Shown: positions 874 to 23,262, counted from the stretch's first letter. The stretch is DNA of 28,256 bases from a virus (IMGVR_UViG_3300037427_002079:1-28256), one strand, 5' to 3'. Numbers and translations: made by a program. Notes: a model not told the origin generated them from the letters alone.

Positions 874-901
874 TTGATTTTTACAGCTCGTATATTATAA
901 T
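874..901 (+). promoter_or_regulatory. Sigma70-like promoter TTGATT-N16-TATAAT
   Basis: TTGATT (874-879) and a perfect TATAAT (896-901) are separated by 16 nt. The -10 box ends 5 nt before the ATG at 907, so transcription would start on or next to the start codon. The same arrangement recurs at 11834-11861 and, in variant form, at 8412-8439. It probably drives the glycan cluster with host RNA polymerase. Confidence 0.6.
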
Positions 902-906
902 AATAT

Positions 907-1716
907 ATGGGCTTAGATATAATAATACCTACTAAAGGTAAGACTGAGTACTTATTTAAATGCTTACAAAGCATATTAGATCATACAGAGTGTGACTATC
1001 AAATACATATAGCAGACACCGGTAGCTCAAAAGAAGAGCTCCAAGAAATTTCCCGGTTTATAAAAAAGAAGTTTTCTCTATATAAAAATGCTAGTCTATA
1101 CTCGTATAACTATTATAATTTTGCAAAGATTAATAATAGTGTAGTTACAAAACACTGTAAAGAGGATACAGTTCTTTTCTGTAACAACGATATCGAGCTA
1201 CAGGGACCGTGTATTGATCAATTGTGGGAAATGGCTAGGAAGCCGAATGTAGGTACTGTAGGGTGTAGGTTGTTGTTTGAGGACGGAACAGTACAGCATG
1301 CCGGACAAATAGCATTTACACACCGACCAGAGGAATGGCCGTTCGATGAAGATAAGCTAGAAGTCACTCACAGAGGCCTTCATCAACTTACAACCTATGC
1401 ACCGGTGGAGGAGGTAATGGGTAACACAGCCGCCCTTATGTGTGTTGATCGAGAGAAGTTCGATAAGGTTGGTGGTTTTAATAATAACTATGTTGAATGT
1501 TTTGAGGACGTAGAGTTAAATATGAATATTCTATTAGCTGGTTATATTAACATATATATAGATAGAGTACATGCTGTACATGCAGAAAGTGTCACTAGAA
1601 CTAAAGGAGCCGCGGCCATGGATTTGCTAGGGCAAGACTATTTAAATAATTTATATCCTTTCTGGAATAAGTTGTCAACTTCACAACAACGAACTATTAC
1701 TAATTTTACAAAATGA
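907..1716 (+). CDS. Family 2 glycosyltransferase (GT-A)
   Basis: A 269-residue GT2-type transferase. The N-terminus (MGLDIIIPTKGKTEYL) is the usual first strand and nucleotide-binding start. CNNDIEL at residues 92-98 is the DxD-like metal/nucleotide-sugar motif. GGFNNNYVECFEDVEL at 189-204 matches the GGFDE-x-ED-DL acceptor/catalytic segment of rhamnosyltransferase-like GT2 enzymes. It should transfer a sugar from a nucleotide donor to a growing glycan; donor and acceptor cannot be read. First gene of a plus-strand glycan run, overlapping the next gene by 4 nt (ATGA). No transmembrane segment is visible, so it is probably cytoplasmic. Confidence 0.85.
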   Translation: MGLDIIIPTKGKTEYLFKCLQSILDHTECDYQIHIADTGSSKEELQEISRFIKKKFSLYKNASLYSYNYYNFAKINNSVVTKHCKEDTVLFCNNDIELQGPCIDQLWEMARKPNVGTVGCRLLFEDGTVQHAGQIAFTHRPEEWPFDEDKLEVTHRGLHQLTTYAPVEEVMGNTAALMCVDREKFDKVGGFNNNYVECFEDVELNMNILLAGYINIYIDRVHAVHAESVTRTKGAAAMDLLGQDYLNNLYPFWNKLSTSQQRTITNFTK

Positions 1717-2489
1717 AAATCGCATGCATGCTTACAGTTTGGAACGAGATTGAATATATACCATACAAGATCGCGTTTTGCAAACAGAACAACCTAGTAC
1801 CATACGTAGTAGATAACTACTCAGATGATGGTACGTGGGAGTGGTTACAAGATAATAAAATACACTCACATAGGTTAGATACTAACGGAATGTTTAAGCT
1901 CCGACCGTTACAGGACGAACTGATCAAAACGCTACATCAGATGGAACCGAAACCAGACTGGTGTATCTATAACGGATGTGATCTTTTTCCTCTTGCTCAC
2001 AACAATAACTTGCATGATGAACTTGTAAGACTTGATAGCTTAGGCTTCAATATGGCTAACATTAATAATATAGACGTGTACAATACTGGTGAGGGTATCG
2101 AAGACCGGGGTGTTAATAATGTATTTAACACGTATTTCTATACCGGTAAAACAAGGAACTTTACTATGATACATAAATATTCTAAGAGATTACACTATCA
2201 AGGTGATGCTGTTTTTATTAGGGATCAGGTCTCTAATACCGGTAAGATTAACGGTCTACAGATTAATTATGGTAACACTAAAACTGCAGAAGAGAGAGAC
2301 GGCACTCTTGCGAGGAGATCGAAGGCGTGGGAGAATGGGGAGCATAAGGTCCATGGCTCTCACTACCGTGTAGGTAAGAGTAAGAATTGGGAGTGGTCAA
2401 AGGGAGAACTAATAGATATTCGTAATACGGATAACTACAAATATGTAAAATACTTACAGGAGCTGGTTCCGTATGAGTTTACAGGTTAG
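1713..2489 (+). CDS. Glycosyltransferase-like protein (GT-A, family 2-like)
   Basis: 258 residues. The N-terminus (KIACMLTVWNE-EYIPY) is typical of the 'Glyco_tranf_2_4' type of GT-A protein, followed by VVDNYSDDGT, a common nucleotide-binding segment. WCIYNGCDLFP occupies the DxD position in variant form. The C-terminal half carries EERDGTLARRSKAWENG and HGSHYR, a pattern seen in bacterial glycan-cluster proteins of this type. The start overlaps the previous stop by 4 nt, indicating translational coupling. Substrate unknown. The family assignment is solid at fold level but weaker at activity level because the acidic motif is atypical. Confidence 0.7.
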   Translation: MKIACMLTVWNEIEYIPYKIAFCKQNNLVPYVVDNYSDDGTWEWLQDNKIHSHRLDTNGMFKLRPLQDELIKTLHQMEPKPDWCIYNGCDLFPLAHNNNLHDELVRLDSLGFNMANINNIDVYNTGEGIEDRGVNNVFNTYFYTGKTRNFTMIHKYSKRLHYQGDAVFIRDQVSNTGKINGLQINYGNTKTAEERDGTLARRSKAWENGEHKVHGSHYRVGKSKNWEWSKGELIDIRNTDNYKYVKYLQELVPYEFTG

Positions 2490-3294
2490 TATTATAGGGT
2501 TAGGTTTTGTAGGTGGCGCTATGCTTGATAGTTTCAAGCAAAAGAACATCAATGTCGTAGAGTACGATAAGTATAAAGAATCTAAAAACGAGCTTGTAGA
2601 TGTTCTTAAAACTGATATAGTGTTTATGTGCTTACCTACTCCTTATGACAGTAAGCAATATGAGTATGATAAGTCTGCAATATATGAGATATGCCAGTAT
2701 TTGAGCGAAAATAAATATACTGGTGCAGTGGTTTGTAAGAGCACTGTAGAGCCGGGGACTTGCCAGGAGATTGCGGAAGAATTTCTCAACTTAAACTTAA
2801 TACATAATCCAGAATTTTTAACAGCAAGGACTGCAAAAGAAGACTATCATAATCAAAAGCATATTGTATTAGGTAGAACAAAGAGATGCGATGATAATCA
2901 TTACAACACTATTGTTGATTTTCATAGTGAACACTACCCATGGGCGCAGATTACAAGATGTAAGAGTATAGAATCGGAATCTGCAAAGCTTTTCGCGAAT
3001 AGCTTCTATGCAGTAAAGGTACAGTTCTTTACTGAGCTTTTTCTGCTGTGTAAGAAGTCTGGTTGTGATTATAATACAGCGAAACAGATACTGATCAGAA
3101 ACGATTGGGTGAATCCTATGCATACAACTGTTCCAGGACCGGATGGTAGTATCAGTTATGGTGGCCTATGTTTCCCTAAGGATACAAACGCTCTCAATGA
3201 GTATATGAAGGAGATGAAGAGCCCTAACGGAGTGCTAGATGCGTGTATTATTGAACGTGATGAGATGAGAGATGATCATGATAACTGCAAGTGA
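2473..3294 (+). CDS. UDP-sugar 6-dehydrogenase-like protein lacking the C-terminal domain
   Basis: 273 residues, against about 400-450 for typical UDP-glucose/UDP-GlcNAc 6-dehydrogenases. The Rossmann motif GLGFVGG is at 9-15. STVEPGT (89-95), HNPEFL (110-115), ESAKLFANSF with Lys171/Asn175, and the catalytic GGLCFPKDT with Cys232 are all present. The NAD domain, central helix and catalytic cysteine are therefore intact, while the second Rossmann-like UDP-binding domain is missing. It should oxidise the C6 hydroxyl of a nucleotide sugar to a uronic acid (WbpA/Ugd/WecC type) if the short form is active. AGGAG at 2458-2462 could act as ribosome binding site, and the start overlaps the previous gene by 17 nt. 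With the following oxidoreductase and the later acetyltransferase and epimerase it suggests an acetamido-uronate route. Confidence 0.8.
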   Translation: MSLQVSIIGLGFVGGAMLDSFKQKNINVVEYDKYKESKNELVDVLKTDIVFMCLPTPYDSKQYEYDKSAIYEICQYLSENKYTGAVVCKSTVEPGTCQEIAEEFLNLNLIHNPEFLTARTAKEDYHNQKHIVLGRTKRCDDNHYNTIVDFHSEHYPWAQITRCKSIESESAKLFANSFYAVKVQFFTELFLLCKKSGCDYNTAKQILIRNDWVNPMHTTVPGPDGSISYGGLCFPKDTNALNEYMKEMKSPNGVLDACIIERDEMRDDHDNCK

Positions 3295-4312
3295 TATAGG
3301 TAAACATCTTAAGATAGCAGTATGTGGTTGTGGTCATATTGGACAACGACATATTGAGATGATACACCGACATAAAGATATGAAGCTGACTGGTATGATT
3401 GACGTAGAGATAAAAGCGGCGCTGTCAGCGAAGTATGATACATCGTTTTACACAGATTTAGCTAATTTTATAGATAATGAGAAATTTAGTAAAGATTGGT
3501 CAGATGTAATCGCGATAGCGACGCCGAATGGGTTGCACTATGAACAGGCAATATTGTGCTTGCAGTCCGGTTATCATGTTATTATCGAGAAGCCGATGTG
3601 CTTTACTAAACAACAGGCAGAGCACATAATTCAAGAATCTATCAAATCAAAGAGAAATGTATTCTGTGTTATGCAAAATAGATACTCTCCACCATCGACC
3701 TGGTTCAAGGAGTTGATAGAATCTAATATACTAGGTGATATATACCTCGCGCAATTAAACTGTATGTGGAATCGTGATGAAAGATATTATAATGAAGATA
3801 CTTGGCATGGAGATAAGGACCTAGACGGTGGCAGCCTATACACTCAATTCTCTCATTTTATAGATCTGATGTACTGGTACTTCGGAGATATATGTAACAT
3901 CAAGGGAGCTGTTGCAGACTTCAACCACCAACAACTTACCGATTTTGAAGACACAGGGAGCTTTGTGTTTGATTTTATTAAGGGTGGTATGGGTACGTTC
4001 ACCTTCACAACTGCGGTCCATGGAAAGAATCTACAAAGTAACATAACCGTCATTGCAGAAAATGGTACTGTTAAGATAGGCGGTCAGTATATGAACGAGG
4101 TTGAGTACTGTAATATTAAACATTATGACATGCCGGTATTAGAGCCGACAAATGCAGCTAACGACTACGGACCATACAAAGGATCTGCAGCTAATCACTG
4201 TTATGTTTATGATAATGTATATCACCATCTACTAACACCGGATGTACCTATCACATGTAACATGTTTGAGGGTATGAAGGTTGTTGATATTATTGAGAGA
4301 TTATATAAATGA
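3272..4312 (+). CDS. Gfo/Idh/MocA oxidoreductase (WlbA/WbpB-like sugar 3-dehydrogenase candidate)
   Basis: 346 residues. The dinucleotide-binding GCGHIG is at 19-24 and the family's EKP motif at 106-108 (IIEKPMCFT). GGSLYTQFSHFIDLMYWYFGD carries the conserved histidine (His195) at the catalytic position. The GGS-x-H-x-D-x-YW-FG pattern is closest to the WlbA/WbpB group, which oxidises C3 of UDP-GlcNAcA. This inference is strengthened by neighbours resembling WbpA, WbpD and WbpI. The start overlaps the preceding gene by 23 nt, and the stop overlaps the next ATG by 4 nt. Another Gfo/Idh activity cannot be excluded from sequence alone. Confidence 0.8.
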   Translation: MIMITASDIGKHLKIAVCGCGHIGQRHIEMIHRHKDMKLTGMIDVEIKAALSAKYDTSFYTDLANFIDNEKFSKDWSDVIAIATPNGLHYEQAILCLQSGYHVIIEKPMCFTKQQAEHIIQESIKSKRNVFCVMQNRYSPPSTWFKELIESNILGDIYLAQLNCMWNRDERYYNEDTWHGDKDLDGGSLYTQFSHFIDLMYWYFGDICNIKGAVADFNHQQLTDFEDTGSFVFDFIKGGMGTFTFTTAVHGKNLQSNITVIAENGTVKIGGQYMNEVEYCNIKHYDMPVLEPTNAANDYGPYKGSAANHCYVYDNVYHHLLTPDVPITCNMFEGMKVVDIIERLYK

Positions 4313-5121
4313 ATATCACAATAGCTATGAGTATAGGTGGAGCGGCTTCCTTTACAAAGCTCGACAAAGGTTCGTGTCTTCCTAACGTTTTATATAGTAT
4401 TGTTAATCAGTCGGGGTTTGACCAATATAATATAAAGTTCGCTATTTTTAATCATAGTGAAGACGATACCAATGTTAGAGATATATTTAGTAAGTTTATA
4501 GATGTAGAGCAAATGAAAATACAGTCTGGGAGTTGTGAGTCGTTTACCAGACTAAACACTAAATTTAAAAGAGATACCGGGATTGTAGATACAGATGCAG
4601 ATGTAGTTTTCTATCAATCATGTGACACGATATGGTTTGATCCAAACATTCTTAAGAGTACTACTGATATGATTAATGACAAAAATATTGTTGTATCAAC
4701 TAACACACAGGATGTCCATGTACCATACGCTTTACATAACAATAGTGCTGATTATACAGCTTTTAACAATACACTAACCACTCTACTAAACAATACTCCG
4801 GCTGGAGCACGAGGGAGGAAAAATGCTAAATTTATGTATCTAGGAGCGATGCGGAAGGACTTGTTTGATATGTATACTGATGAACCATTCATGTGTGATT
4901 TAACACAGCATAATTTCTTTCAAGCGAATGATGTAGAGTTTGTGATATCTGATAACATGTCGATTCACCAAAAGCACAAATATAACGTGATGCCATGTCT
5001 TGACTTCAACAATTGCAATAATAAGTATGGTAATAAGGCATCGTGCGGAAGGAAGACTAATCCTAGGATGCAGCAAGAGACTTTAACTTTTATAGAACAA
5101 TTTAAAAACAAACAAAAATGA
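4309..5121 (+). CDS. Glycosyltransferase-like GT-A protein
   Basis: 270 residues. The N-terminus (NITIAMSIGGAAS) is followed by CLPNVLYSIVNQSGFDQYNIKFAIFNHSEDD, the usual shape of a GT-A start. DTDADVVFYQSCDTIW holds acidic residues where the DxD motif is expected. A later segment (FMYLGAMRKDLFDMY) has the layout of the acceptor-side region of GT2-like enzymes. I do not recognise a precise family. Coupled by 4-nt ATGA overlaps at both ends, so it is translated with the neighbouring sugar-nucleotide enzymes. Several Cys and Asn-rich residues occur near the C-terminus (FNNCNNKYGNKASCG), with no clear role. Confidence 0.55.
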   Translation: MNITIAMSIGGAASFTKLDKGSCLPNVLYSIVNQSGFDQYNIKFAIFNHSEDDTNVRDIFSKFIDVEQMKIQSGSCESFTRLNTKFKRDTGIVDTDADVVFYQSCDTIWFDPNILKSTTDMINDKNIVVSTNTQDVHVPYALHNNSADYTAFNNTLTTLLNNTPAGARGRKNAKFMYLGAMRKDLFDMYTDEPFMCDLTQHNFFQANDVEFVISDNMSIHQKHKYNVMPCLDFNNCNNKYGNKASCGRKTNPRMQQETLTFIEQFKNKQK

Positions 5122-6086
5122 TTAAAAATATGAATATAGTAATAACCGGTGGAGCAGGGTTTATAGGTTCACACTTAGCGGATGAATTAATTGAGAGAGG
5201 TGATAGTGTATATATTATTGATAACTTAGAGACTGGGCGAAGAGATAATATTAACAGTAAGGCGGTTTTTATTGAAGGAGACATTGCAGATGCTGATACT
5301 ATAAAAGAGTTATTTGACCTAGCACAACCAGATGTAGTAATACATGCGGCGGCATCTTATAAGGATCAAAGTAATTGGTCTGGGGATATTTTAGCTAACG
5401 TACTCGGTTCTGCGAACCTCGTTAAAGCTGCGCTAGCGCATGATGTAGAAAAATTTATATACTTTCAAACTGCACTATGCTATGGGCATGAACCAGATGT
5501 ATCACCTATACCGCTACTACATCATATCGATCCAGATAACAGCTACTCAGTGTCTAAGACGGCCGGTGAGCAGTATATTAGATTCAGCGACATAAACAGC
5601 ACTTCATTTCGGTTGGCTAATGTTTATGGACCGAGGAACCTAAGCGGACCAGTTCCTACGTTTTTTCACCGACTAAACAACAACGATGATGTGTTTATAT
5701 CATCATCTAGGAGAGATTTTATTTATATTAAGGATCTAGTAAGAATAGTATTAGCTAATATTGATGGAGTGGGTGAGCGAGACGTTTACCACATATCTAG
5801 TGGTGAAGATTGTTCAATTGAGGAGATATTTGAAATTGTAGCAGATGAGATGGGTGTTGATAAGAATGTCCAAGCTTCATATGGCAGATTTAAAGATGAT
5901 ACGAAGACATTACTGATCGACCCAAGTATAACTCTAAAAGACTTTAACTATATTCCAGATACACCTATGAGTGTAGGTATACCAAAGGCACTGGAGTGGT
6001 ATCGACAAAACGGTGTAACTGAAACATACACTCACCTATCTGCTGAACAGCTACGAACTAAAGCTCGCGAGCATCTAGATGAATAA
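5118..6086 (+). CDS. NAD-dependent sugar epimerase/dehydratase (extended SDR)
   Basis: 322 residues with the full extended-SDR signature: GGAGFIG at 11-17, D35 after strand 2 as NAD-ribose acid, HAAAS at 76-80, and the catalytic pair Tyr143/Lys147 in NSYSVSK. FRLANVYGPRN follows, typical of UDP-glucose 4-epimerase-like and UDP-glucuronate decarboxylase-like enzymes. It should act on a nucleotide sugar, through 4-epimerisation, dehydration or decarboxylation; sequence does not decide which. The start overlaps the previous stop by 4 nt and the end overlaps the methyltransferase start by 8 nt. Length is normal for the family. Confidence 0.85.
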   Translation: MIKNMNIVITGGAGFIGSHLADELIERGDSVYIIDNLETGRRDNINSKAVFIEGDIADADTIKELFDLAQPDVVIHAAASYKDQSNWSGDILANVLGSANLVKAALAHDVEKFIYFQTALCYGHEPDVSPIPLLHHIDPDNSYSVSKTAGEQYIRFSDINSTSFRLANVYGPRNLSGPVPTFFHRLNNNDDVFISSSRRDFIYIKDLVRIVLANIDGVGERDVYHISSGEDCSIEEIFEIVADEMGVDKNVQASYGRFKDDTKTLLIDPSITLKDFNYIPDTPMSVGIPKALEWYRQNGVTETYTHLSAEQLRTKAREHLDE

Positions 6087-7257
6087 TGTCGAACGGCACT
6101 GGACCAATCATACGATCCAAGGAAGATCTAGCTGGCGCGACTCAAAAGCGAGCGCCGACTACATACACACAATCGATAGATCGTACCCGATGTATCTTCA
6201 GTTGTTCGGTTTATATGATGAACATCTTAACGAAACGATACTAGATTACGGATGCGGACCAGGAAATGACCTAGTTGGTTATTCTCTATATTCAAGATGT
6301 AAGAAGATAGTTGGAGCGGATATCTCGTCAAAGGCTATTGCGCAGGCTATTGATAGATTGAGTCTACATAATATACAAGTATCTAAAGACATCTCCGGAA
6401 GCCTCCCAGCACCTCCACATCATCAGAGCGTTTCAATATTAAAGATTGATGAAGAAAAGTCAGAGATTGATTGCGAGGATGATTATTTTGATTTTATTCA
6501 AAGTACAGGAGTTATACACCATACATCAGATCCTGAGAAGGTATTAGGTGAGTTGTATAGAGTGCTAAAGCCGGGGGGAAGGTTGAATGTTATGATGTAT
6601 CACAGAAACTCACTATGGGTGAAGTTAGTAATACCTAATGATATGTACAACTTACAGAGTAATATTAGTAGCCCGGTTGTCGCGGTTCCAGGTTCAAGAT
6701 TTAATGAGCTCAAGAGTCTTAATAGCGAGCAGATATTTGAAAGGCTAGCAGACAACGGGGCACCGGTTGCTTTTTTGAGTGATAAGTCTGACTTTACTAG
6801 TTTGGCGAATAGTGTTGGTTTTACGGGTGGTTTTGATAATGCAGCGTTTTCACTACATGATTTACGAGCTTGTTTAGTACTTAACTCCAGCATACAACAT
6901 TTACCAGAAGATACTCTAGAGTTTGTGAACCAGTTAGACTACGACCATCACGATAAGATACAGATAGTTATATCACCAGGGAGTAGGAATAATGTAAATG
7001 TCGCGAAAAATCGTCTATATTATGTACAGTCAGATGACCTAGGTGATATACATATAGCTAACGCTACTATGGATATTGATGGCAGTCAAGTAAGCTTAAG
7101 AGGTGAAGATATACAGCACAAGTTAATATATACTAACAGCGACAATGTAACAATCAGTGCAGAGCGAGGTGGTGAGGTAATATTAACAGAGGTATATCCT
7201 GTTATAGGAGATGAATATTACCCAGGCATCAATGCTATATACAAGTTTATAAAATAA
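6079..7257 (+). CDS. Class I SAM-dependent methyltransferase with C-terminal extension
   Basis: 392 residues. Motif I is LDYGCGPGND (55-64), motif II is VGADIS (78-83), and post-motif elements STGVIHHTSDPEKVLGELYRVLKPGG (142-167) match a Methyltransf_11-type fold. Two unusual parts stand out: an insertion before the VIHH strand (about 100-130), and about 200 residues after the catalytic domain that I do not recognise. The context points to methylation of a sugar or nucleotide sugar. No aromatic or membrane anchor is seen. Starts inside the epimerase gene (8-nt overlap) and is the last gene before a new promoter region. Confidence 0.8.
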   Translation: MNNVERHWTNHTIQGRSSWRDSKASADYIHTIDRSYPMYLQLFGLYDEHLNETILDYGCGPGNDLVGYSLYSRCKKIVGADISSKAIAQAIDRLSLHNIQVSKDISGSLPAPPHHQSVSILKIDEEKSEIDCEDDYFDFIQSTGVIHHTSDPEKVLGELYRVLKPGGRLNVMMYHRNSLWVKLVIPNDMYNLQSNISSPVVAVPGSRFNELKSLNSEQIFERLADNGAPVAFLSDKSDFTSLANSVGFTGGFDNAAFSLHDLRACLVLNSSIQHLPEDTLEFVNQLDYDHHDKIQIVISPGSRNNVNVAKNRLYYVQSDDLGDIHIANATMDIDGSQVSLRGEDIQHKLIYTNSDNVTISAERGGEVILTEVYPVIGDEYYPGINAIYKFIK

Positions 7258-7261
7258 CATT

Positions 7262-7279
7262 CTAATAAATAGTTATTAG
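7262..7279 (+). promoter_or_regulatory. Inverted repeat containing a late-promoter-like TAATAAATA box
   Basis: CTAATAA (7262-7268), loop ATAG, TTATTAG (7273-7279) form a perfect 7-bp inverted repeat. Within it lies TAATAAATA (7263-7271), one base off the T4 late box, 11 nt before the ATG at 7283. It may be a promoter, an mRNA 5' hairpin or an operator; the sequence alone does not decide. Confidence 0.4.
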
Positions 7280-7282
7280 GTA

Positions 7283-8434
7283 ATGGAGCATATATACTAT
7301 AGTAAATCCTTCCATGAAGCAGACTGTCTAGGAGACACCCATCACAGCTTACCTGTTACATACGTAACGAGTACAAATACGTGGGATCTTAGTCCAGTGG
7401 TTGATTGGATTAACGGGTTGAAGAACAACACGACACATCAATATACTATAGTAAACGCTTCGACTGTGGCAGTTGAGTATATTGATCCAGATTCTGTATT
7501 AGTGTTTGGTTGGGAGATGATGAATGCCTGTATGTTGTATAATAGTTATAGTAAGAGAGATAAGTTCATCAATCATATTAACAATGTACATAGGGGACCG
7601 GTTGTAGTAATTAAGCAAGACGAGCACTTGTATAACCCGGTTTTGGTTGATTTTGTTAAACGCATTGAAGGGAAGTTGTGCGCGATACTTACGTGTACGA
7701 GTAGTAATCAGGATGCAGAGAAGGTATATGGTGGTGTAGATACAAAGTATATTCATATATTACCAGGATATCTACCTGCTGCAGACATGAGTACGTCTAA
7801 AGACTTTAAGGATAGGGCGATAGACGTACTTAGTCGTGGTAGATGGCTCAAGCCTAAGTATGGGAAGTTAGGGCGATTGAAGGCTTCTATTGGTGAGGAG
7901 ATGCTTTTATACTGGAACAATAATCCGAAGGTGCAGCACTTAAAGATTAACCACTCTAACGATGCTCGGGACAGAATATACGGAGCGTGGATAGCCACAG
8001 TTAAGGAAGCTAAAACCTTATTAGCAACACCTACCGGGTGTAACGTTATACATAATACAAGGTCTCAGCTAGATATAATGCGCGATGGTACAACATACGC
8101 GAACTTCAAGAGAGTGTATGCGGCGGAAAGTAATAACTGGGAAGAGACTCTTAATTTTGAGTGTATAAGTCCTAAAATGTTACAAGCTATAAACTGTAGA
8201 ACAGCACTAATCTTGTACGAGGGCATTTATGGGGATGGTGTAAGCAATCTAGTTCCATGGAAGCATTATATAGAGCTGAAGCGCGATCACTCGAATATCG
8301 AGGAGGTTTGGGAGAACGTTCAAGACCTCGAGCTGATCGAGAAGATAACTAACCGGTCATTCAAATACGCTACCACTACGTATGCGTATGATAAGTTTGT
8401 AAGATTTATCGATTGCATTTACAGTGGACTATAG
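7283..8434 (+). CDS. GT-B-like glycosyltransferase
   Basis: 383 residues. The C-terminal third carries the hallmark of GT4/'Glyco_trans_1_2' proteins: SPKMLQAINCRTALILYEG followed by WKHYIELKRDHSNIEEVWENVQD. This corresponds to the family's SPK-x-E-x-x-ACG-x-LL pattern and the following 'HYI-L-KD-SN-DEV' donor-site element. DVLSRGRWLKPKYGKLGRLK near residue 180 matches the interdomain strand at the start of the C-terminal Rossmann domain. It should transfer a nucleotide-activated sugar; substrate unknown. It has its own short upstream region with an inverted repeat and late-like box. Confidence 0.65.
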   Translation: MEHIYYSKSFHEADCLGDTHHSLPVTYVTSTNTWDLSPVVDWINGLKNNTTHQYTIVNASTVAVEYIDPDSVLVFGWEMMNACMLYNSYSKRDKFINHINNVHRGPVVVIKQDEHLYNPVLVDFVKRIEGKLCAILTCTSSNQDAEKVYGGVDTKYIHILPGYLPAADMSTSKDFKDRAIDVLSRGRWLKPKYGKLGRLKASIGEEMLLYWNNNPKVQHLKINHSNDARDRIYGAWIATVKEAKTLLATPTGCNVIHNTRSQLDIMRDGTTYANFKRVYAAESNNWEETLNFECISPKMLQAINCRTALILYEGIYGDGVSNLVPWKHYIELKRDHSNIEEVWENVQDLELIEKITNRSFKYATTTYAYDKFVRFIDCIYSGL

Positions 8435-8439
8435 TATAA
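8412..8439 (+). promoter_or_regulatory. Sigma70-like promoter TTGCAT-N16-TATAAT
   Basis: TTGCAT (8412-8417), 16 nt, then a perfect TATAAT (8434-8439). The ATG of the next gene is 10 nt after the -10 box, so the transcript leader would be only a few nucleotides. The -35 lies inside the end of the upstream gene. Confidence 0.5.
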
Positions 8440-8449
8440 TTAATATATC

Positions 8450-10387
8450 ATGTGCGGTATATTTGGACAGCTTAATCTATCTTATCAGAAGTGTGAACAA
8501 TTACAGAGTAACTTAGATAGCGCCATAACGACTTTAGGTCATCGAGGACCGGATCAAGCGGGGACTTGGGCGCATGAAAAGACATTTGTAGGTTTTGCGC
8601 ATACTAGGCTAAGCATAATAGATCTACAAGGTGGTAAACAGCCGATGGGCGATACCGGTTATCATATTGTTTTTAATGGTGAGATCTATAATTACAAGGA
8701 ATTAGCGAGTAGTCACATGCTCGGACCGTTGACTAGTGATACTGAGGTGTTGTTAGAGATGTATAAAAAATATGGTGCTAGGTGTCTGGATTATATTGAC
8801 GGTATGTTCTCATTTGCAATATGGGACAACGTTAAACATGAGCTCTTCTGCGCGAGAGACCATACTGGTATTAAACCTCTATACTACACGGTACATGGTA
8901 ACAATATGTATTTTTCATCTGAAATTAAAGCTTTATTACGTCATGTTGATGAGATTAAAATGGATAGATCTTCCTTCTGTGAATATATTACATTTCAATT
9001 TACATTAGGTGCAAACACCATGTTTAGTAATATCAAGCAGCTCATGCCGGGGCATAGCTTGACTGTAGATCGACGAGGTGAAATTTGTGTTGAGGAATAT
9101 TGGAAACTATGCTTTAGTACTGATTTTGATCACACAGAAGAATATTTCACAAATAAACTCGATAGTCTATTAACTGATTCTATCACGTCGCACCTTATTA
9201 GTGATGTACCAATTGGGGGTTATGTCAGTGGTGGTATTGACTCGAGTTTAGTGGCGGCTATATGTACTAGTCAATATTCAAATTTTACTGGCTACACTGG
9301 TCGGTTTACAGGTACTACAGGTTACGATGAAAGTCAATATGCTAGAAAAGTAGCGAAGAAAAATAAGTTTGATTTGCATGTCATAGATATAGATCATAAC
9401 GATTTTGAGAATAATATAAACCAGATAATGTACTTCTTAGATCAACCAATAGCCGGTCCGGGTGCTTTCTCTCAATATATGGTTGCAAAGGAAGCTTCTA
9501 AGCATCATAAAGTGTTGTTAAGCGGGCATGGTGGTGATGAGATGTTTGGTGGCTATGCTAGATATCTAATAGCATATTTCGAGCAATGTATAAAATCAGC
9601 GATTACCGGTAGTAGTGGCGGTAGGTATATACTTTCTTACGATACAATACTGGATAGCTTATCGTGTCTCTCTACGTATATACCTACTATAAAAAGACAG
9701 TGGGCAGATGGCTTGTTTGGAGAAATGGATGAGCGATATTTTAATTTAATTGACAAGTCATACTCTATTAAATCTTACATACCGGAGGGCTTCATCGACG
9801 ATAATGCTGTCATGGATAACTTCAAAACTATATTCAACACTAGTAATGTACCTAGTAAATCATATTTTGATTTAATGACACACTTTGATTTAAAGACCTT
9901 ACTACCAGCACTGCTCCATGTAGAGGATCGAATCAGTATGGCTCATGGTATAGAAACTCGAGTACCGTTACTAGATAAAAATATTTTAGAGTTCTGCAGC
10001 ACAATACCGTCTAGTCTAAAATTTAAAAACGGTAAGCTGAAGTATCTGCTAAGACAATGTAGCAAAAAGTACTTACCTAAAAAGGTGTATAATAGAAAAG
10101 ATAAAATGGGATTTCCTACCCCATTTATGGAATGGGCTAGAGGACCTCTTAAAGAGCTAATATGCGATACACTGACGTCAACTAAAGCTATAAATAGAGA
10201 CTACATCGACAATGGTAAGATTGTTAGCGATTTACATAATGGCAACAACATGTATGATCGTAGTTTGTGGGGAGCGTTTTCTCTAGAGCTGTGGCATAAA
10301 ATTTATATAGATAAAATGAATAATACAAACATTAATATTGAACCTAATACAGGTATTGATATAAACATCTTAGCAGGCATCTACTAA
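8450..10387 (+). CDS. asnB: Glutamine-dependent asparagine synthetase-type amidotransferase
   Basis: 645 residues, full length for the AsnB family. The catalytic Cys2 follows the initiator Met (MCGIFG). Glutaminase residues HRGPD (31-35), TRLSIIDL (52-59) and FNGEIYN (75-81) are present, then the ATP-pyrophosphatase loop SGGIDSS (260-266), a GHGGDEMFGGYARY element, and GIETRVPLLD. It transfers ammonia from glutamine to an ATP-activated carboxylate. Inside a glycan cluster such proteins (WbpS-type) are thought to amidate uronic acids rather than aspartate; that is the preferred inference here because uronate-forming enzymes are adjacent. The stop overlaps the next ATG by one base (TAATG). Confidence 0.9.
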   Translation: MCGIFGQLNLSYQKCEQLQSNLDSAITTLGHRGPDQAGTWAHEKTFVGFAHTRLSIIDLQGGKQPMGDTGYHIVFNGEIYNYKELASSHMLGPLTSDTEVLLEMYKKYGARCLDYIDGMFSFAIWDNVKHELFCARDHTGIKPLYYTVHGNNMYFSSEIKALLRHVDEIKMDRSSFCEYITFQFTLGANTMFSNIKQLMPGHSLTVDRRGEICVEEYWKLCFSTDFDHTEEYFTNKLDSLLTDSITSHLISDVPIGGYVSGGIDSSLVAAICTSQYSNFTGYTGRFTGTTGYDESQYARKVAKKNKFDLHVIDIDHNDFENNINQIMYFLDQPIAGPGAFSQYMVAKEASKHHKVLLSGHGGDEMFGGYARYLIAYFEQCIKSAITGSSGGRYILSYDTILDSLSCLSTYIPTIKRQWADGLFGEMDERYFNLIDKSYSIKSYIPEGFIDDNAVMDNFKTIFNTSNVPSKSYFDLMTHFDLKTLLPALLHVEDRISMAHGIETRVPLLDKNILEFCSTIPSSLKFKNGKLKYLLRQCSKKYLPKKVYNRKDKMGFPTPFMEWARGPLKELICDTLTSTKAINRDYIDNGKIVSDLHNGNNMYDRSLWGAFSLELWHKIYIDKMNNTNINIEPNTGIDINILAGIY

Positions 10388-10791
10388 TGACATACACACA
10401 CGATACAGCAAATATATATGATACAGCTAATATAGGAGAGGATTGCTCAATAGGTGCTTTTGTAGAGATAGGTAAAGATGTAACAATTGGTAATAGATGT
10501 AAGATCGGGTGTGGAGCGTTTATTCCAGAGAACATTATTATAGAGGATGATGTTTTTATAGGACCAAAAGTAACTTTCACTAATGATAAGAATGCCCCAT
10601 CAAACGGGAAGTGGCGATCTCTACCACCAACTGTTGTAGAGGATAATGCATCTATTGGAGCTAACAGCACCATACTACCTAGCTTAACTATTGGGAGCGG
10701 GAGCGTAGTTGGAGCCGGAAGCGTTGTTACTAAATCAGTTCCTCGAGGCTGTACAGTATATGGTAACCCAGCAAAGAGGAGCTCTCAGTAG
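10387..10791 (+). CDS. Hexapeptide-repeat sugar N-acetyltransferase (WbpD/WlbB-like)
   Basis: 134 residues forming a left-handed beta-helix of imperfect [LIV]-G-x4 repeats (IGEDCSIGAFVEIGKDVTIG). The inserted loop VTFTNDKNAPS is characteristic of the WbpD/WlbB/PglD-like nucleotide-sugar acetyltransferases. It ends in GNPAK, the common end of the helix. The length is somewhat short of the ~190 residues common in the group. It should use acetyl-CoA to acetylate an amino sugar; in the Wbp route that is the 3-amino group of UDP-GlcNAc(3NH2)A. It is sandwiched by one-base overlaps (TAATG before, TAGTG after), so its expression is tied to the amidotransferase and the epimerase. Confidence 0.85.
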   Translation: MTYTHDTANIYDTANIGEDCSIGAFVEIGKDVTIGNRCKIGCGAFIPENIIIEDDVFIGPKVTFTNDKNAPSNGKWRSLPPTVVEDNASIGANSTILPSLTIGSGSVVGAGSVVTKSVPRGCTVYGNPAKRSSQ

Positions 10792-11825
10792 TGAAGGTTG
10801 CTAGCTTAGTTGGAACGAGACCGCAGTTCTTAAAATTATCACCTATATGTGATTATGTTAATGCAGCTGAGTCGGAGATCGATCATGTAGTGATACATAG
10901 TGGTCAGCATTACGATGCAAATATGTCGAGTGATATATTCTCTCAATTAGATATACCAACACCTATTAAGACGATTGACCGATTAAACGATTCTAACAGT
11001 ATGAATTTCGGTCATATGATGGCTGAAGTTGGAGATACCATTAATGAGCATGGCATAGATATATTAATAGTGTTTGGTGATTGTGATACTACTCTAGCGG
11101 GTGCGATGGCGGCAAGGAGGTTGAATATACCGGTGGTACATGTTGAGGCTGGTATGAGGAGTTTCAACCGACGGATGCCGGAGGAGGTTAATAGAGTGTT
11201 AACAGATAATATATCTGATATACTGCTGTGTCCAGATCAGCATTCAATTGAAAGGCTCCATCTAGAGGGCATACATGATAACATACATCTAGTCGGTAAC
11301 TTACAAATTGAGCTGATACGGAACACTATGGATTTAGAGGACTCACAGCAATATGACTTTAAGTATAGCCTACTCACTATACATAGAGATTACAACACAG
11401 TCCCGACTAAGATTAAATATTTCTTTGACGAGCTAAAAGATGTTGATATGCATTTTATCTTCCCGGCTCATCCCAGAACTAGTAAGATTATATCAGAGCA
11501 CAATATTAAGGTACCGGATAACATACACTTAAAGGGACCGTTCTCTTATCTACACACCTTACAACACCTAAACGGTTGTGAGTATGTTGTTACTGATTCC
11601 GGAGGTTTACAATTAGAAAGCTGGTATCTCGGCAAAAAATGTCTAGTTTTGAGAACGGAGACAGAATGGATCGATGCAGTTCACTCCGGTAATAGTATGC
11701 TATGTAATAGTGATACTCCGCGAGTTAGTGAGTGTATTGACTTATTGATTAATCAACCTATACTGAATTGCTACGATCTACCTCTCAACACTAGTGAGCT
11801 CATATTTAAGCATACATTAAGCTGA
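10791..11825 (+). CDS. UDP-GlcNAc 2-epimerase-family enzyme (WecB/WbpI-like)
   Basis: 344 residues; GTG start in a TAGTG overlap. The family motifs are in order: GTRPQ (8-12), SGQHYD (37-42), Asp97 in FGDCDTT, HVEAGMRS with Glu119, RRMPEEVNR (128-135), His198 in TIHRDYN and TDSGG (268-272). These correspond to the catalytic and UDP-binding residues of non-hydrolysing UDP-GlcNAc 2-epimerases. Substrate could be UDP-GlcNAc (WecB) or UDP-GlcNAc(3NAc)A (WbpI/WlbD). Proximity to the acetyltransferase and two dehydrogenases favours the second by inference. The usual 'GTRPE' reads GTRPQ here. Confidence 0.85.
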   Translation: MKVASLVGTRPQFLKLSPICDYVNAAESEIDHVVIHSGQHYDANMSSDIFSQLDIPTPIKTIDRLNDSNSMNFGHMMAEVGDTINEHGIDILIVFGDCDTTLAGAMAARRLNIPVVHVEAGMRSFNRRMPEEVNRVLTDNISDILLCPDQHSIERLHLEGIHDNIHLVGNLQIELIRNTMDLEDSQQYDFKYSLLTIHRDYNTVPTKIKYFFDELKDVDMHFIFPAHPRTSKIISEHNIKVPDNIHLKGPFSYLHTLQHLNGCEYVVTDSGGLQLESWYLGKKCLVLRTETEWIDAVHSGNSMLCNSDTPRVSECIDLLINQPILNCYDLPLNTSELIFKHTLS

Positions 11826-15166: not shown

Positions 15167-15863
15167 CAAACATGACCCAACACCATGGCGTCGATCATGG
15201 ATATTCTACGGTCGGCGGTACATCCCTGGTCATACTATCGAGAGATCTCTACTCGATGAAGCAACCGGAAAGAACGTCGTTGAATTCAATACATATGACA
15301 TGGCAGATAGTAACAGAGTCCGCTCAGTATACTCTGCCTTACCTAAAATAACCAATATGTTCCTATACGAGTACCCTGGTGGAGACATCATGGGTGGATA
15401 TCACAACGAAGGTCTATTACCTTTATCCGGTGTACAATTAGAAATCTGGGGGTATAACTTTGCTGGACTCCCAGCCTCTAGCGATATATCACCACCTCGA
15501 TCTTCGGATCGAGATAGAAGACATACAAACACTATGCACTTATACGTTAGTGCTACCCCTGGTGTTTTCTCGGACGGTGATTACACTGTGATCGATAGAT
15601 ACACAACGATTGATCTACTATCCGCTAAAAATCCAACCTTTAAAGGTATTGAGGTAGAATATGAATCAATACCAGTGGTTGATAAGTCTAAGTCTAAAAC
15701 ACAGACCAACCCGAAGACTATATTTTATACTAAGAAAAATAAATTAAGATTTCGACTGCCTTATATATATGAGAATGAAGGATGCATCGACATAATCGTC
15801 GCGAATGCCGCTGGGTACACTACATTAAATACATTAACTAACGAACTAGTCTGTAACTTATAA
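15156..15863 (+). CDS. Putative virion-associated protein, IPT/Ig-like fold possible
   Basis: 235 residues, beta-rich, unrecognised family. GVQLEIWGYNFAGLP resembles the start of an IPT/TIG Ig-like domain (G-x-I-x-G-x-NF). LRFRLPYIYENEGCIDIIVANAAGYTTL resembles its end (V-v-N-x-G-t). Between them lies a Ser/Arg/Asp-rich loop (SPPRSSDRDRRHTN). No signal peptide or membrane segment is seen. It is coupled to gp15 by an 11-nt overlap, so a tail or neck component is the most likely guess. The end overlaps the convergent sulfotransferase-like gene by 6 nt inside an inverted repeat. Confidence 0.55.
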   Translation: MTADKHDPTPWRRSWIFYGRRYIPGHTIERSLLDEATGKNVVEFNTYDMADSNRVRSVYSALPKITNMFLYEYPGGDIMGGYHNEGLLPLSGVQLEIWGYNFAGLPASSDISPPRSSDRDRRHTNTMHLYVSATPGVFSDGDYTVIDRYTTIDLLSAKNPTFKGIEVEYESIPVVDKSKSKTQTNPKTIFYTKKNKLRFRLPYIYENEGCIDIIVANAAGYTTLNTLTNELVCNL

Positions 15864-15876
15864 GCCCAGCTTATAA
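15858..15876. terminator. Perfect inverted repeat at convergent gene ends
   Basis: TTATAAGC, loop CCA, GCTTATAA: an 8-bp perfect stem. It contains the stop codons of both converging genes (TAA at 15861-15863 on plus; TAA read from 15860-15858 on minus). A bidirectional terminator or mRNA 3'-end structure is likely, though there is no long T-run on either strand. Confidence 0.5.
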
Positions 15877-16586
15877 AATGTATCAACTAAAGATTGATCA
15901 ACATGATCATCAATAACAGCAATAAGATCATCTGTAATATTGGATAAGTACTCTTCCTCAAGATAGTACTTTTTATTAAATTGCGACTTCTTATCAACCA
16001 ACAAACCGACGTCAGTAGATGCGTTTACTGGAGATGCTTCATCTACATACGACGCCTCCGGATGTCTTTTCGTCATACCGAACTTAATATCTAGATTTAG
16101 TAGTATATGATTTATATCTCTAATCAAACTCTCGTACGGAACAATGATAGACTTAGCTTCGTTTTGTCTATACAGCTCTAACCAGTTATAATAGCTTTTA
16201 TTATATCGCTCACACATATTCTTAACAATTGTTGGCGTGAGCTTCTTGTTTGGAAACCGGAAGTTCTTATAACTCAGCACGTAAGGTATAGGCTTCTTTA
16301 TACTAAAGATGTAACCTAGGTTTGGTATAGCTGCTAGCAAGACCTTCGGTGAGTAGCGCAATGGATATCCATCAACTGAAAAAACAACTCCGTGTTTAGA
16401 TTTTCTCTTCACCCACTCCTCATGACTCTTAGTATCATCTCTTGAGTTAGACACATCATACATACCATGCTTCCATCCTAGAATGCTTCCAAATACGTGA
16501 GCGTCTACAAAGTTTATCTCTATAAGACGCTTCAGGTAGTTAGTACCGGTCCTTATCTCACCATACTGCTTAATATACTTACTCAC
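15858..16586 (-). CDS. Sulfotransferase-like protein
   Basis: 242 residues, GTG start in a GTGA overlap with the upstream kinase-like gene. YGEIRTGTNYLKRLIE at residues 8-23 matches the PAPS 5'-phosphosulfate loop of phage/bacterial sulfotransferases ('GE-RTGTNYL'). FSIKKPIPYVLSYKNFRF, around residues 94-111, matches the second strand and 3'-phosphate-binding segment ('v-v-KnP-aw-lSyk'). IIVPYESLIRD matches the later 'rYE-L' element. It probably transfers sulfate from PAPS to a glycan hydroxyl. It is the last gene of a three-gene minus-strand operon and ends convergently with the putative virion gene. Confidence 0.7.
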   Translation of the reverse strand: MSKYIKQYGEIRTGTNYLKRLIEINFVDAHVFGSILGWKHGMYDVSNSRDDTKSHEEWVKRKSKHGVVFSVDGYPLRYSPKVLLAAIPNLGYIFSIKKPIPYVLSYKNFRFPNKKLTPTIVKNMCERYNKSYYNWLELYRQNEAKSIIVPYESLIRDINHILLNLDIKFGMTKRHPEASYVDEASPVNASTDVGLLVDKKSQFNKKYYLEEEYLSNITDDLIAVIDDHVDQSLVDTFYKLGL

Positions 16587-17754: not shown

Positions 17755-17790
17755 CTTAAATATATTTAATGACGGCGTCCGGGAATTCAA
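17734..17790. promoter_or_regulatory. Divergent promoter pair sharing a 14-bp palindromic -10 region
   Basis: TTAAATATATTTAA at 17756-17769 is a perfect palindrome between divergent genes whose starts are 15 nt apart. Minus direction: TTGAAT (17790-17785), N16, TAAATA (17768-17763), then the GTG at 17754. Plus direction: TTGATA (17734-17739), N16-17, TTAAATA (17756-17762), then the ATG at 17769. Each -35 box lies in or beside the opposite gene. Confidence 0.5.
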
Positions 17791-20188: not shown

Positions 20189-21474
20189 ACTGCTACAGCT
20201 TCGAACCCAGGTACTGGTCTTATTATTTTCTCTCCCCAACCATCCTTACCACATGGCCATAGCATATATGTTTTTGGTGATGTCGCTGATATAATATTCT
20301 CTCTAAAGAACACCCGACCGTTGTTGACAAACTGGTTTATATTATTGCGAGTTTTGTCCTTTCTGTAAATCTCTTTACCGTCTGCATCATGTACACCAAA
20401 GAACCAAAAATTGATATCATCGCCATGAGGGACATCCTTCAGTGGTATGTCGACTCTAACTACAGCTTTAGTAGCGAAAGAATCTAACCACTCTTCGTCT
20501 GTATTAAAAGTAGGGCATGGAAGAGCTTGATTTTTAATAGTATGATCCAAAGCGGCTCGCTTCTTAAAATGTATACCGGCGTATTTTTCGTAATCCATTA
20601 CCGACCGGTCGGCGCCAAAATCATATATACCAAAATCTATATCCTTCTCGAGCCCATCCATCTCAAACAACTTCCGGTTGCGGAGATGGCACTCTGCATT
20701 CCGAACATGCCATGGTTTATTATCCTTGCTACTCTTCGCATCATGATCATCCCAATGCTTTGGTCTATTCTTTCTAGTGTATTCATGCCACACAACCATC
20801 CGGTGAGGGTGAAAAAGATCATAACCATGTGAAAACGCTCTAACAGCAATACTAATCTCCTCCCCATGAAAATAATACTCTGGATCATGAGGGACTTCTA
20901 AACAGAACTTACCGAGTGTAAACGTAAAGTGGGCTGAGTAGAACCTTGCTGGTAAAGGTGCATCTAGCTCTCTCCAGTTATCTATAGATGATGGTAAGAA
21001 GAAAACAGCTCCCTCTGGAATAAATCTATCAAAATCCATCTTCCATGGAACCTTGATTCTCTTTCCGGGATCATCATCCGGGTCGTATGACGGCATATAC
21101 CCTGTCAGGAGAGGCTTCTCGTGCCCATTAGCTTGTAATTGATCTATCATCTTTATCAGGATACTATCCCAATTCTTAACAAACCGGTGATGCGAATCTA
21201 GCTGTAAAGTGAAATCCTCACCATCGTATTGTTGTTGAACTAAGTTCCTGGCCCAGCAAACCCCCTTCGCTTCATCCCATGGTATATCGATAATCCGGAA
21301 TCGATCATCATCCGACCACTCACTCAAATCATCGAACAGATCTTTCTCATGAAACTGTCGGCATATTCCAAATACTAACCGGGATGGGTCCTTAGCTTTG
21401 GCTAAACAATCTTTAATTGTCGGTATTAATTCCGGATCTCTATAGGAGGCTATTTGAATAAATATCTTTTGCAC
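20185..21474 (-). CDS. GT60-type (Skp1-GlcNAc-transferase-like) glycosyltransferase with extra C-terminal domain
   Basis: 429 residues, GTG start at 21474. KIFIQIASYRDPELIPTIKDCL is the hallmark N-terminus of the PF11397 'GlcNAc' family, known for the Skp1 prolyl-4-hydroxyproline GlcNAc-transferase and many bacterial and viral relatives. FTLQLDSHHRFVKNWD carries the family's DSH/DxH metal motif. YFHGEEISIAVRAFSHGYDLFHPHRMVVWHEY matches its C-terminal catalytic block. After about residue 330 there is a ~100-residue module (VDIPLKDVPHGDDINFWFFGVHDADGKEIYRKD) that looks beta-rich and is not part of the catalytic core. First gene of its minus-strand operon, divergent from the portal gene. Confidence 0.8.
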   Translation of the reverse strand: MQKIFIQIASYRDPELIPTIKDCLAKAKDPSRLVFGICRQFHEKDLFDDLSEWSDDDRFRIIDIPWDEAKGVCWARNLVQQQYDGEDFTLQLDSHHRFVKNWDSILIKMIDQLQANGHEKPLLTGYMPSYDPDDDPGKRIKVPWKMDFDRFIPEGAVFFLPSSIDNWRELDAPLPARFYSAHFTFTLGKFCLEVPHDPEYYFHGEEISIAVRAFSHGYDLFHPHRMVVWHEYTRKNRPKHWDDHDAKSSKDNKPWHVRNAECHLRNRKLFEMDGLEKDIDFGIYDFGADRSVMDYEKYAGIHFKKRAALDHTIKNQALPCPTFNTDEEWLDSFATKAVVRVDIPLKDVPHGDDINFWFFGVHDADGKEIYRKDKTRNNINQFVNNGRVFFRENIISATSPKTYMLWPCGKDGWGEKIIRPVPGFEAVAV

Positions 21475-21480
21475 ATAAAT
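21473..21480 (+). promoter_or_regulatory. T4-late-like box CATAAATA before the portal gene
   Basis: CATAAATA, one mismatch from TATAAATA, ends 15 nt before the portal ATG at 21496. A second AATAAATA lies at 21457-21464. Both fall in the divergent junction with the GT60-like gene. Its position supports starting the portal at 21496. Confidence 0.45.
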
Positions 21481-21495
21481 AATTACAGACCTTAC

Positions 21496-23262
21496 ATGAA
21501 AAATCCAACTTCAACACCTAATCAATTATCTAAATTCATACAAGCGAGCTTACCTTGGTCATCGAAGACTGAAATACAGGGTATAGATGACCTAAACCCT
21601 AAGTACAGACATTTTTATGACCTAGGTACTGAACGTGATGATGCGCTTGCCCGCCATGCTGTATCTACAATGACACCTACCGAGCCCGGAGTCAGTGGTT
21701 CTGTAGAGGTGGATAAGAACTATTCCGCGTACATGTACGCTAACGTAGATACAGACAAAATTAAGAGGTTGTTGGACTATAGGATGATGGCAGCATATGC
21801 TGAAGTCGGTGATGCTTTAGATGAGATATGTGACGATATCGTGGTTGATGATGATGATGGACAATGCGTGTCGCTAAACTTCAAGGATCAAGTCGATTTA
21901 GACCCCTCAGTGAAGCAAGAGCTTGAAAAGGAGTTCACTCGCATAACTAGATATTTTGATTTTGAAACTAAGGGTTGGGAGTATTTTAGGAGCTTACTAG
22001 TAGACGGTGAACTGTTCTTTGAGAATGTAATACACGAAGAACATAAGGAACTAGGTATCTTAGGTGTAACCTTGATGCCGGTTGAGTTGTTAGACCCTAT
22101 ATTTGATAATGTGCAGAATATGATAATCAAGGGGTATCTCCTCCGCCGCCCGGTGTATAACCCTAAAACCGGTACGGTCGAAAAAACAGAATTTATACCG
22201 TTCGATAGAAACCAAATAACATACGTACATAGTGGGATATGGAATGAAGATAAAACATTGAGAGTACCTTTTGTTGAGAACTGCCGGAGAGCATATAGAC
22301 AGTTAACACTCGTTGAGGATGCTATTGTTATATATAGACTAGTTCGAGCACCAGAGAAATTAGTCTTTAATGTTGATGTAGGTAATATGTCAGCACCAAA
22401 AGCAGAGAGTTATCTTAAAAGACTAATGCAAGAATATTGGAACCGGAAGACATTTGACGCTCACCAATCTGGAACAACTAATGCTTTTAATCCACAATCC
22501 ATGCTAGATAGTTTTTGGTTTGCTAAAAGACAGGGTTCTGAAGGAAGCAGTGTTATATCTTTACCAGGTGGGGCGAACCTAGGTGAGTTGACAGATTTAA
22601 TGTACTTTGTACAAAAACTATATAAAGCATTGAAAGTACCATCCAATAGGCTGAATTCAGAGTCTAGATTTGAAGATAGTGCTGCGATATTACGAGAGGA
22701 GCTAAAGTTCGCTCGGTTTCTCATTAGACTACAACAAAAATTCTCCGCCGGGCTGAAAAATACATTTATAACACACTTAAAAATGAAAGGGCTTTGGGAT
22801 GAATATGACCTCAAAGAGAATTACATCCAGCCGATTTTCAACCCACCTAGTCAGTTCTACACTCTGCGCGAGCAGCAAATATTTGAGATTAAGAGTAATA
22901 ACTATACTAGTATGGCGAACAATCCTAAAGTTTCTGATACAATATCGCAGAAGAAGTATCTGGACTGGTCGGATGCCGAAATCGCAGAGAATAGGGCTTG
23001 GCTTAGAAAAGATGCTGGGTTTACGTTTGAACTCGCTCAAATTGAAGCTCTTGGGCCAAACTGGAGAGAGCAATTACAAGCGCAGGCAGATGCTGCTATG
23101 GGAGAGATGGGAGCACCAGGCGGGGGAGCGATGCCGATGGGCGGAGATAGTGCTTTACCAGCGTTTGGTGGTGAAGCTGAAGTCGCTGGTGATACTCCTG
23201 GAGAAGAGGCTGAACCAGCACCGATGAGCGACACAGAAACATCTTTACCGGCTTCCGCTTAA
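21496..23262 (+). CDS. 20: Portal vertex protein (T4 gp20-like)
   Basis: 588 residues from the ATG at 21496. An in-frame TTG at 21454 would add 14 residues, but that stretch contains the late-promoter-like boxes and lies within the divergent gene's 5' end. Conserved gp20 features are visible: MAAYAEVGDALDEICDDIVVDDD, EKEFTRITRYFDFETKGWEYFRSLLVDGELFFENVI, LGVTLMPVELLDPI, IVIYRLVRAPEKLVFNVDVGNM, and EGSSVISLPGGANLGELTDLMYFVQKLYKALKVPSNRL with RFEDSAAILREELKFARFI-type core. It forms the dodecameric DNA-packaging channel and head-tail connector. The last ~60 residues are Gly/Ala/Met-rich and acidic, probably disordered. Confidence 0.92.
   Translation: MKNPTSTPNQLSKFIQASLPWSSKTEIQGIDDLNPKYRHFYDLGTERDDALARHAVSTMTPTEPGVSGSVEVDKNYSAYMYANVDTDKIKRLLDYRMMAAYAEVGDALDEICDDIVVDDDDGQCVSLNFKDQVDLDPSVKQELEKEFTRITRYFDFETKGWEYFRSLLVDGELFFENVIHEEHKELGILGVTLMPVELLDPIFDNVQNMIIKGYLLRRPVYNPKTGTVEKTEFIPFDRNQITYVHSGIWNEDKTLRVPFVENCRRAYRQLTLVEDAIVIYRLVRAPEKLVFNVDVGNMSAPKAESYLKRLMQEYWNRKTFDAHQSGTTNAFNPQSMLDSFWFAKRQGSEGSSVISLPGGANLGELTDLMYFVQKLYKALKVPSNRLNSESRFEDSAAILREELKFARFLIRLQQKFSAGLKNTFITHLKMKGLWDEYDLKENYIQPIFNPPSQFYTLREQQIFEIKSNNYTSMANNPKVSDTISQKKYLDWSDAEIAENRAWLRKDAGFTFELAQIEALGPNWREQLQAQADAAMGEMGAPGGGAMPMGGDSALPAFGGEAEVAGDTPGEEAEPAPMSDTETSLPASA

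Follow-up and report, generated by a model that had tools for sequence, protein, structure and literature searches.

The viral contig IMGVR_UViG_3300037427_002079:1-28256 (the window, meaning the whole 28,256-base IMG/VR record) carries a cluster of sugar-nucleotide genes within a run on one strand from about 900 to 11,825, in which the genes mostly overlap or abut. An earlier note on this DNA had named five enzymes of the cluster and compared them with the bacterial Wbp/Wlb pathway. Their reading frames lie where it had placed them, all on the plus strand, and their family matches are far beyond chance:

2473..3294, plus strand: short Ugd-class UDP-sugar 6-dehydrogenase, 273 aa (UDPG_MGDP_dh N domain 1e-18, central domain 5e-12)
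3272..4312, plus strand: Gfo/Idh protein, candidate WlbA-type UDP-GlcNAcA 3-dehydrogenase, 346 aa (GFO_IDH_MocA 2e-23)
8450..10387, plus strand: AsnB-type glutamine amidotransferase with Cys2, 645 aa (Asn_synthase 3e-83, GATase_7 3e-39)
10387..10791, plus strand: short hexapeptide N-acetyltransferase, WlbB/WbpD-like, 134 aa (Hexapep 1e-24)
10791..11825, plus strand: non-hydrolysing UDP-sugar 2-epimerase with the WbpI signature (RPQF, F95, W293), 344 aa (Epimerase_2 4e-75)

The cluster probably encodes most of the enzymes that lead from UDP-GlcNAc to UDP-2,3-diacetamido-2,3-dideoxy-mannuronic acid (UDP-ManNAc3NAcA), and probably on to its 6-amide; I put the probability of this reading at roughly two in three. 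The pyridoxal phosphate (PLP) aminotransferase of such a route, WbpE, had been reported as absent, and a profile search for the DegT/DnrJ/EryC1 family (PF01041, hereafter DegT) indeed found no match anywhere in the record while recovering all 14 control genomes; the record is a linear fragment, so this does not show that the phage has no DegT.

The 2-epimerase and its gene neighbourhoods

In the Thermus thermophilus structure, Trp307 of UDP-GlcNAc3NAcA epimerases stands where UDP-GlcNAc enzymes have a conserved Arg in contact with the C3 hydroxyl, and these epimerases also have Tyr96 for His/Gln and Ala18 for Leu/Met (PMC10622841). The phage epimerase keeps all catalytic residues and offers a clear match at Trp293, a near match at Phe95 (aromatic, not Tyr) and a mismatch at Leu16. 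It scored 204 bits against 8sxv versus 83 bits against E. coli WecB, and in a phylogenetic tree the Arg-type enzymes, together with a few His-type ones, formed a single clade (support 100/99) with the phage protein outside it. Its proposed place on the WbpI side is thus borne out.

Grouping viral epimerases at 70% identity gave 60 clusters, 29 of them Trp-type and 31 others, whose neighbourhoods of 9-10 kb were compared. DegT lay near 12/29 Trp-type clusters versus 1/31 of the others (Fisher p=0.0004), and a related hexapeptide gene near 10/29 versus 2/31 (p=0.009), so that the Trp signature tracks the 3-amino route in phages. Every cluster having DegT and Gfo/Idh together (11/11) was Trp-type.

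The Gfo/Idh protein and the acetyltransferase

The solved structures closest to the Gfo/Idh protein were 3q2i (167 bits) and 3q2k (147 bits), which I take to be WlbA of Chromobacterium and Bordetella; the next scored 58 bits, and Pseudomonas aeruginosa WbpB 40 bits. The EKP, QNR and SH..D motifs of the WlbA type also occur in the phage protein. With WlbA structures ahead by ~90-110 bits, the protein sits on the WlbA side, as had been suggested, and C3 oxidation of UDP-GlcNAcA is its candidate activity.

All 80 nearest cellular relatives, at 52-57% identity, belong to Bacteroidota, a set that was chosen by similarity to the phage protein and represents its nearest kin, not the whole family. Within 8 kb of these genes DegT was present at 57/80 loci and a hexapeptide enzyme at 47/80, frequently in the order DegT-HEX-GFO (HEX, hexapeptide enzyme; GFO, Gfo/Idh). 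A Chitinophagaceae locus (L142) even has the order HEX-GFO-ASN-EPI (ASN, AsnB-type protein; EPI, epimerase), a phage-like set. In the tree, the phage Gfo/Idh proteins were nested with support inside Bacteroidota sequences in at least two separate places. The cluster may have a Bacteroidota-like source or host.

For the acetyltransferase, the nearest solved structures were 7s43 (102 bits), 4mzu (95 bits), 3mqg (WlbB, 88 bits) and QdtC (84 bits), with a WxcM-like protein among them. The nearest matches are sugar 3-N-acetyltransferases including WlbB, in keeping with the WbpD/WlbB-like label, and the protein would belong with that group, its exact substrate not being fixed by the scores. Phage relatives at 62-68% identity were found on contigs that also carry DegT and WbpB (L279, L280 and L281) or DegT 4.6 kb away (L278), and the closest relative of all (L277, 73%) had no recognised partner enzyme in the 8.7 kb covered.

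A short 6-dehydrogenase

The 6-dehydrogenase consists of the NAD-binding and central domains only; the C-terminal UDP-binding domain (PF03720) was not found in the record. This absence, and model scores nearer to Ugd (80-63 bits) than to WecC-type enzymes (32-21 bits) or the WbpA type, speak against its earlier description as WbpA-like. The catalytic Cys that went with that description is present, at residue 233 and not 232. Thr, Glu, Lys, Asn, Cys and Asp are the catalytic residues of the UDP-glucose/GDP-mannose dehydrogenase superfamily, and T91, E114, K172, N176, C233 and D237 were invariant across 39 aligned phage 6-dehydrogenases.

There were 369 confirmed viral matches to this protein, of which 80 were retrieved, and all 80 were short (~260-315 residues). 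PF03720 was found in no record tested (0/36 in one set, 0/12 in another). The AlphaFold model was confident (pLDDT 95.6) and, in Foldseek, aligned with Ugd structures along the greater part of the chain (TM 0.83 of query). Because of its invariant catalytic residues, uniformly short relatives and confident Ugd-like model, this is a conserved short enzyme and not a decayed gene. Several viral records that carry the other pathway genes have no recognisable 6-dehydrogenase apart from the short form. This makes it the favoured candidate for the C6 step, with UDP-GlcNAc oxidation as its putative activity.

The AsnB-type amidotransferase

TTIR is the aspartate-binding stretch of asparagine synthetase, and the Glu of GEGSDE is likewise a functional residue. 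The phage protein has the full AsnB architecture including Cys2, and reads AGPGAF and GHGGDE where E. coli AsnB has TTIR and GEGSDE. Since the aspartate-binding T/R and the Glu of GEGSDE are missing, it probably amidates a substrate other than aspartate. The TIGR03108 family contains WbpS and WbqG, and WbpS of Porphyromonas gingivalis amidates sugars of the class proposed for this cluster (PMC7468200). Amidation of a uronate is the likeliest role of the phage protein, proposed as a function and not as a family assignment: the lack of asparagine-synthetase residues supports the comparison with WbpS-type proteins that the earlier note had drawn, and the score falls short of the WbpS-family cut-off (see below). 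Scanning for relatives with the AsnB-type protein alone found nothing, and its viral relative on record L263 was reached through the epimerase.

The missing aminotransferase

Complete viral sets do exist. DegT, WbpB, HEX, the short 6-dehydrogenase and the epimerase stand in a row in records L034, L035 and L044, and further complete sets were found in L254, L258 and L280. L035, a 231-kb record, also has a T4-like portal; its Gfo/Idh is a true WbpB (286 bits to 3oa2), and the closest matches of its DegT are sugar aminotransferases, WbpE among them (222 bits). L263 combines relatives of two proteins of the window, a short-chain dehydrogenase/reductase (SDR; 424 bits) and the AsnB-type protein (720 bits), with a hexapeptide enzyme, a full-length DegT, WbpB and a Trp-type epimerase. 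Between its AsnB and epimerase genes (L263:5217-9004) lie genes for a methyltransferase, a GDSL hydrolase, an N-formyltransferase and a family-2 glycosyltransferase (GT2), which suggests further tailoring of the sugar.

A full-length DegT was found in 0/16 records with a WlbA-type gene, and 2/16 had a mini-DegT only. P. aeruginosa WbpB recycles its NADH with 2-oxoglutarate, whereas the Bordetella type has a sequential mechanism (PMC10622841). Given this difference, my guess is that phages with a WlbA-type enzyme might leave the aminotransferase to the host, bearing in mind that the records are fragments. For the window, the missing enzyme is probably host-supplied or encoded outside the fragment, two of the options that the earlier note had listed; its third, a product without a 3-amino group, is disfavoured (see below).

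Two candidates for a substitute were rejected. The mini-DegT (~212 aa in L003 and L007) occurs mostly with WbqC-like genes and in records without Gfo/Idh, and none is present in the window. A 383-aa protein of the cluster, considered as a hidden aminotransferase, is by sequence not an aminotransferase; its homologue in L002 weakly matches a GT-B family (4e-4).

The mini-DegT proteins add to the 6-dehydrogenase another sugar enzyme that is shortened in these phages. They measure ~211-228 aa and occur at L003:3928-4563 and in L007, L022, L024, L039, L048 and L070, mostly beside WbqC-like genes; that of L003 has a lysine-bearing SFTGPYK-like segment.

Other genes of the cluster and the record

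Four genes that the earlier note had not covered lie between the named five. They and other features of the record are:

907..2489, plus strand: two family-2 glycosyltransferase-like genes (269 and 258 aa), upstream of the five (PF00535 1e-10; PF13704 8e-5, below cut-off)
4309..5121, plus strand: glycosyltransferase-like protein, 270 aa (no Pfam match of its own; the L263 homologue is a GT2, PF00535 7e-10)
5118..6086, plus strand: SDR nucleotide-sugar epimerase/dehydratase (PF01370 6e-43; phrog_540)
6079..7257, plus strand: S-adenosylmethionine (SAM) methyltransferase, 392 aa (PF08241 6e-16)
7283..8434, plus strand: probable GT-B glycosyltransferase, 383 aa (L002 homologue matches PF13524 at 4e-4, below the curated cut-off)
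21454..23262, plus strand: T4-like portal (gp20; phrog_213 8e-106)

The 383-aa protein is treated as a glycosyltransferase because of the weak GT-B match of its homologue; a fold prediction from two sequences was of low confidence (pLDDT 36.7).

The portal places the sugar cluster in a phage genome and, with a recognisable gp21 protease, head closure protein and tail sheath stabiliser, marks the phage as T4-like. The nearest phages in INPHARED gave no DNA match, and their proteins were only 20-30% identical. A cyanophage host was considered and dropped, as no psbA was found in 18 records (this record and 17 relatives). Shine-Dalgarno motifs were few (8/35 starts versus a background of 16%), which fits Bacteroidota and is not specific enough for a host call. 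Motifs resembling T4 late promoters (TATAAATA-like or TAAATAT) were seen just 5' of several start codons, at 601, 12819, 26165 and 26848. From 15858 to 21474, mostly on the minus strand, there is a second sugar-related block with a member of the GlcNAc transferase family PF11397 (1e-72), a weak GT11 match and a kinase-like reading frame. A 468-aa protein (23294-24700), placed between the portal and a gene resembling a head-tail adaptor, has long Thr-Pro repeat tracts between similar segments and no Pfam match.

Proposed pathway and alternatives

In the proposed route to UDP-ManNAc3NAcA, the short dehydrogenase would oxidise C6 and the WlbA-type enzyme C3, after which a PLP aminotransferase, supplied by the host or from beyond the fragment, would aminate C3. 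Acetylation of the new amino group would fall to the hexapeptide enzyme and epimerisation at C2 to the WbpI-type enzyme, and the AsnB-type enzyme might then amidate the C6 carboxylate. The adjacent glycosyltransferases could finally transfer the sugar to a surface glycan or to the virion, and its use might be a change of the host surface directed at rival phages, or glycosylation of the virion. Direct results of the analysis are the identities of the genes, their diagnostic residues and neighbourhoods, and where the missing enzyme occurs; all substrates and products, the target of amidation, the source or host and the use of the sugar are inferred.

Several observations weigh against this route. 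The record is without an aminotransferase, and in L002, the phage closest to this one among those that combine Gfo, AsnB and epimerase genes, no acetyltransferase lies near the cluster. Many WlbA-type phage genes stand without any partner enzyme. The 6-dehydrogenase is Ugd-class, and its product may thus be UDP-GlcA instead of UDP-GlcNAcA; position 16 of the epimerase is Leu, as in GlcNAc enzymes, and not Ala; and the AsnB-type protein, at 393.7 bits, does not reach the TIGR03108 cut-off of 816.9.

The Ugd-class dehydrogenase also lends itself to a possible, if less probable, arrangement of two separate partial routes, one in which it works with the SDR towards UDP-GlcA-derived sugars (UDP-GalA, UDP-Xyl), and another in which the WlbA-type enzyme, the acetyltransferase and the epimerase tap a UDP-GlcNAcA/Wbp pathway of the host. 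Short dehydrogenases and SDRs without Gfo/Idh are common in viral contigs, and Bacteroidota such as P. gingivalis have their own wbpA/B/E/D (PMC4031482). Yet the complete phage sets have the short dehydrogenase inside the DegT-WbpB-HEX-EPI run, no full-length dehydrogenase domain was found in 12 such records, and the P. gingivalis wbpA homologue ugdA is required for anionic lipopolysaccharide (A-LPS; PMC4031482), so a Ugd-class enzyme may act as WbpA. That the genes form no single pathway, being a loose set of sugar genes that were acquired horizontally by a hypervariable region of the phage, seems unlikely: gene turnover among the relatives L001, L002, L019 and L021 is fast, and Gfo/Idh is also found alone, but the epimerase type associates non-randomly with DegT and HEX, and the combination turns up repeatedly, in several phages as well as in Chitinophagaceae. 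Quite improbable is another acetamido-uronate without a 3-amino group, for example UDP-ManNAcA, as the product. It would need no aminotransferase, in keeping with the absence of DegT from this record, L001 and L002, but it would leave the 3-dehydrogenase and the 3-N-acetyltransferase-like enzyme without a role. It is further disfavoured because the 3-acetamido signature of the epimerase tracks DegT in phages and Gfo/Idh tracks DegT in Bacteroidota.

The route to UDP-ManNAc3NAcA could be extended to a group of phages, an idea that I regard as rather doubtful. A family of T4-like phages would make their own amidated di-N-acetyl-mannuronic acid by means of a minimal C6 dehydrogenase without the UDP-binding domain. 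Some of them, including this phage, would use a WlbA-type 3-dehydrogenase that needs no coupled aminotransferase, so that they could leave that step to a Bacteroidota host whose Wbp sugar is diverted.

Relation to known systems

Like the Wbp/Wlb systems (WbpA-B-E-D-I of P. aeruginosa, Wlb of Bordetella), the phage has a recognisable 3-dehydrogenase, 3-N-acetyltransferase and WbpI-type epimerase, and related phages have complete sets with DegT. Unlike them, its cluster is phage-borne and has no aminotransferase in the fragment, a short Ugd-class 6-dehydrogenase and an acetyltransferase of only 134 aa. The P. gingivalis Wbp/WbpS route to the linking sugar of type IX secretion system (T9SS) anionic LPS (PMC4031482, PMC7468200) is similar in its Wbp enzymes and AsnB-type amidotransferase, and the phage Gfo/Idh is of Bacteroidota type; a wbpI homologue, however, is present in the phage, and there is none in P. 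gingivalis.

Sugar-nucleotide enzymes and glycosyltransferases also stand together in sugar islands of T4-like marine phages (pelagimyophages, with a UDP-glucose 6-dehydrogenase), which are thought to alter the host O-chain; the available part of that account describes no Wbp-type 3-amino uronate route (PMC7029224). Megavirinae likewise encode a 2-epimerase, an aminotransferase and an acetyltransferase for bacterial-like rare sugars, but these pathways are based on 4,6-dehydratases and do not lead to uronates (PMC10117803). No report of the present pathway in phages was found in the literature searched, the coverage of which was partial.

If the proposed route is true, phages hold a nearly complete, and sometimes complete, pathway to a rare acidic sugar that has until now been known from O-antigens and surface glycans of bacteria. 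Viral contigs with a short 6-dehydrogenase number in the hundreds, and these enzymes would indicate what share of the protein is dispensable. The cluster itself would be a precise and testable example of a virus that remodels a surface glycan or the virion.

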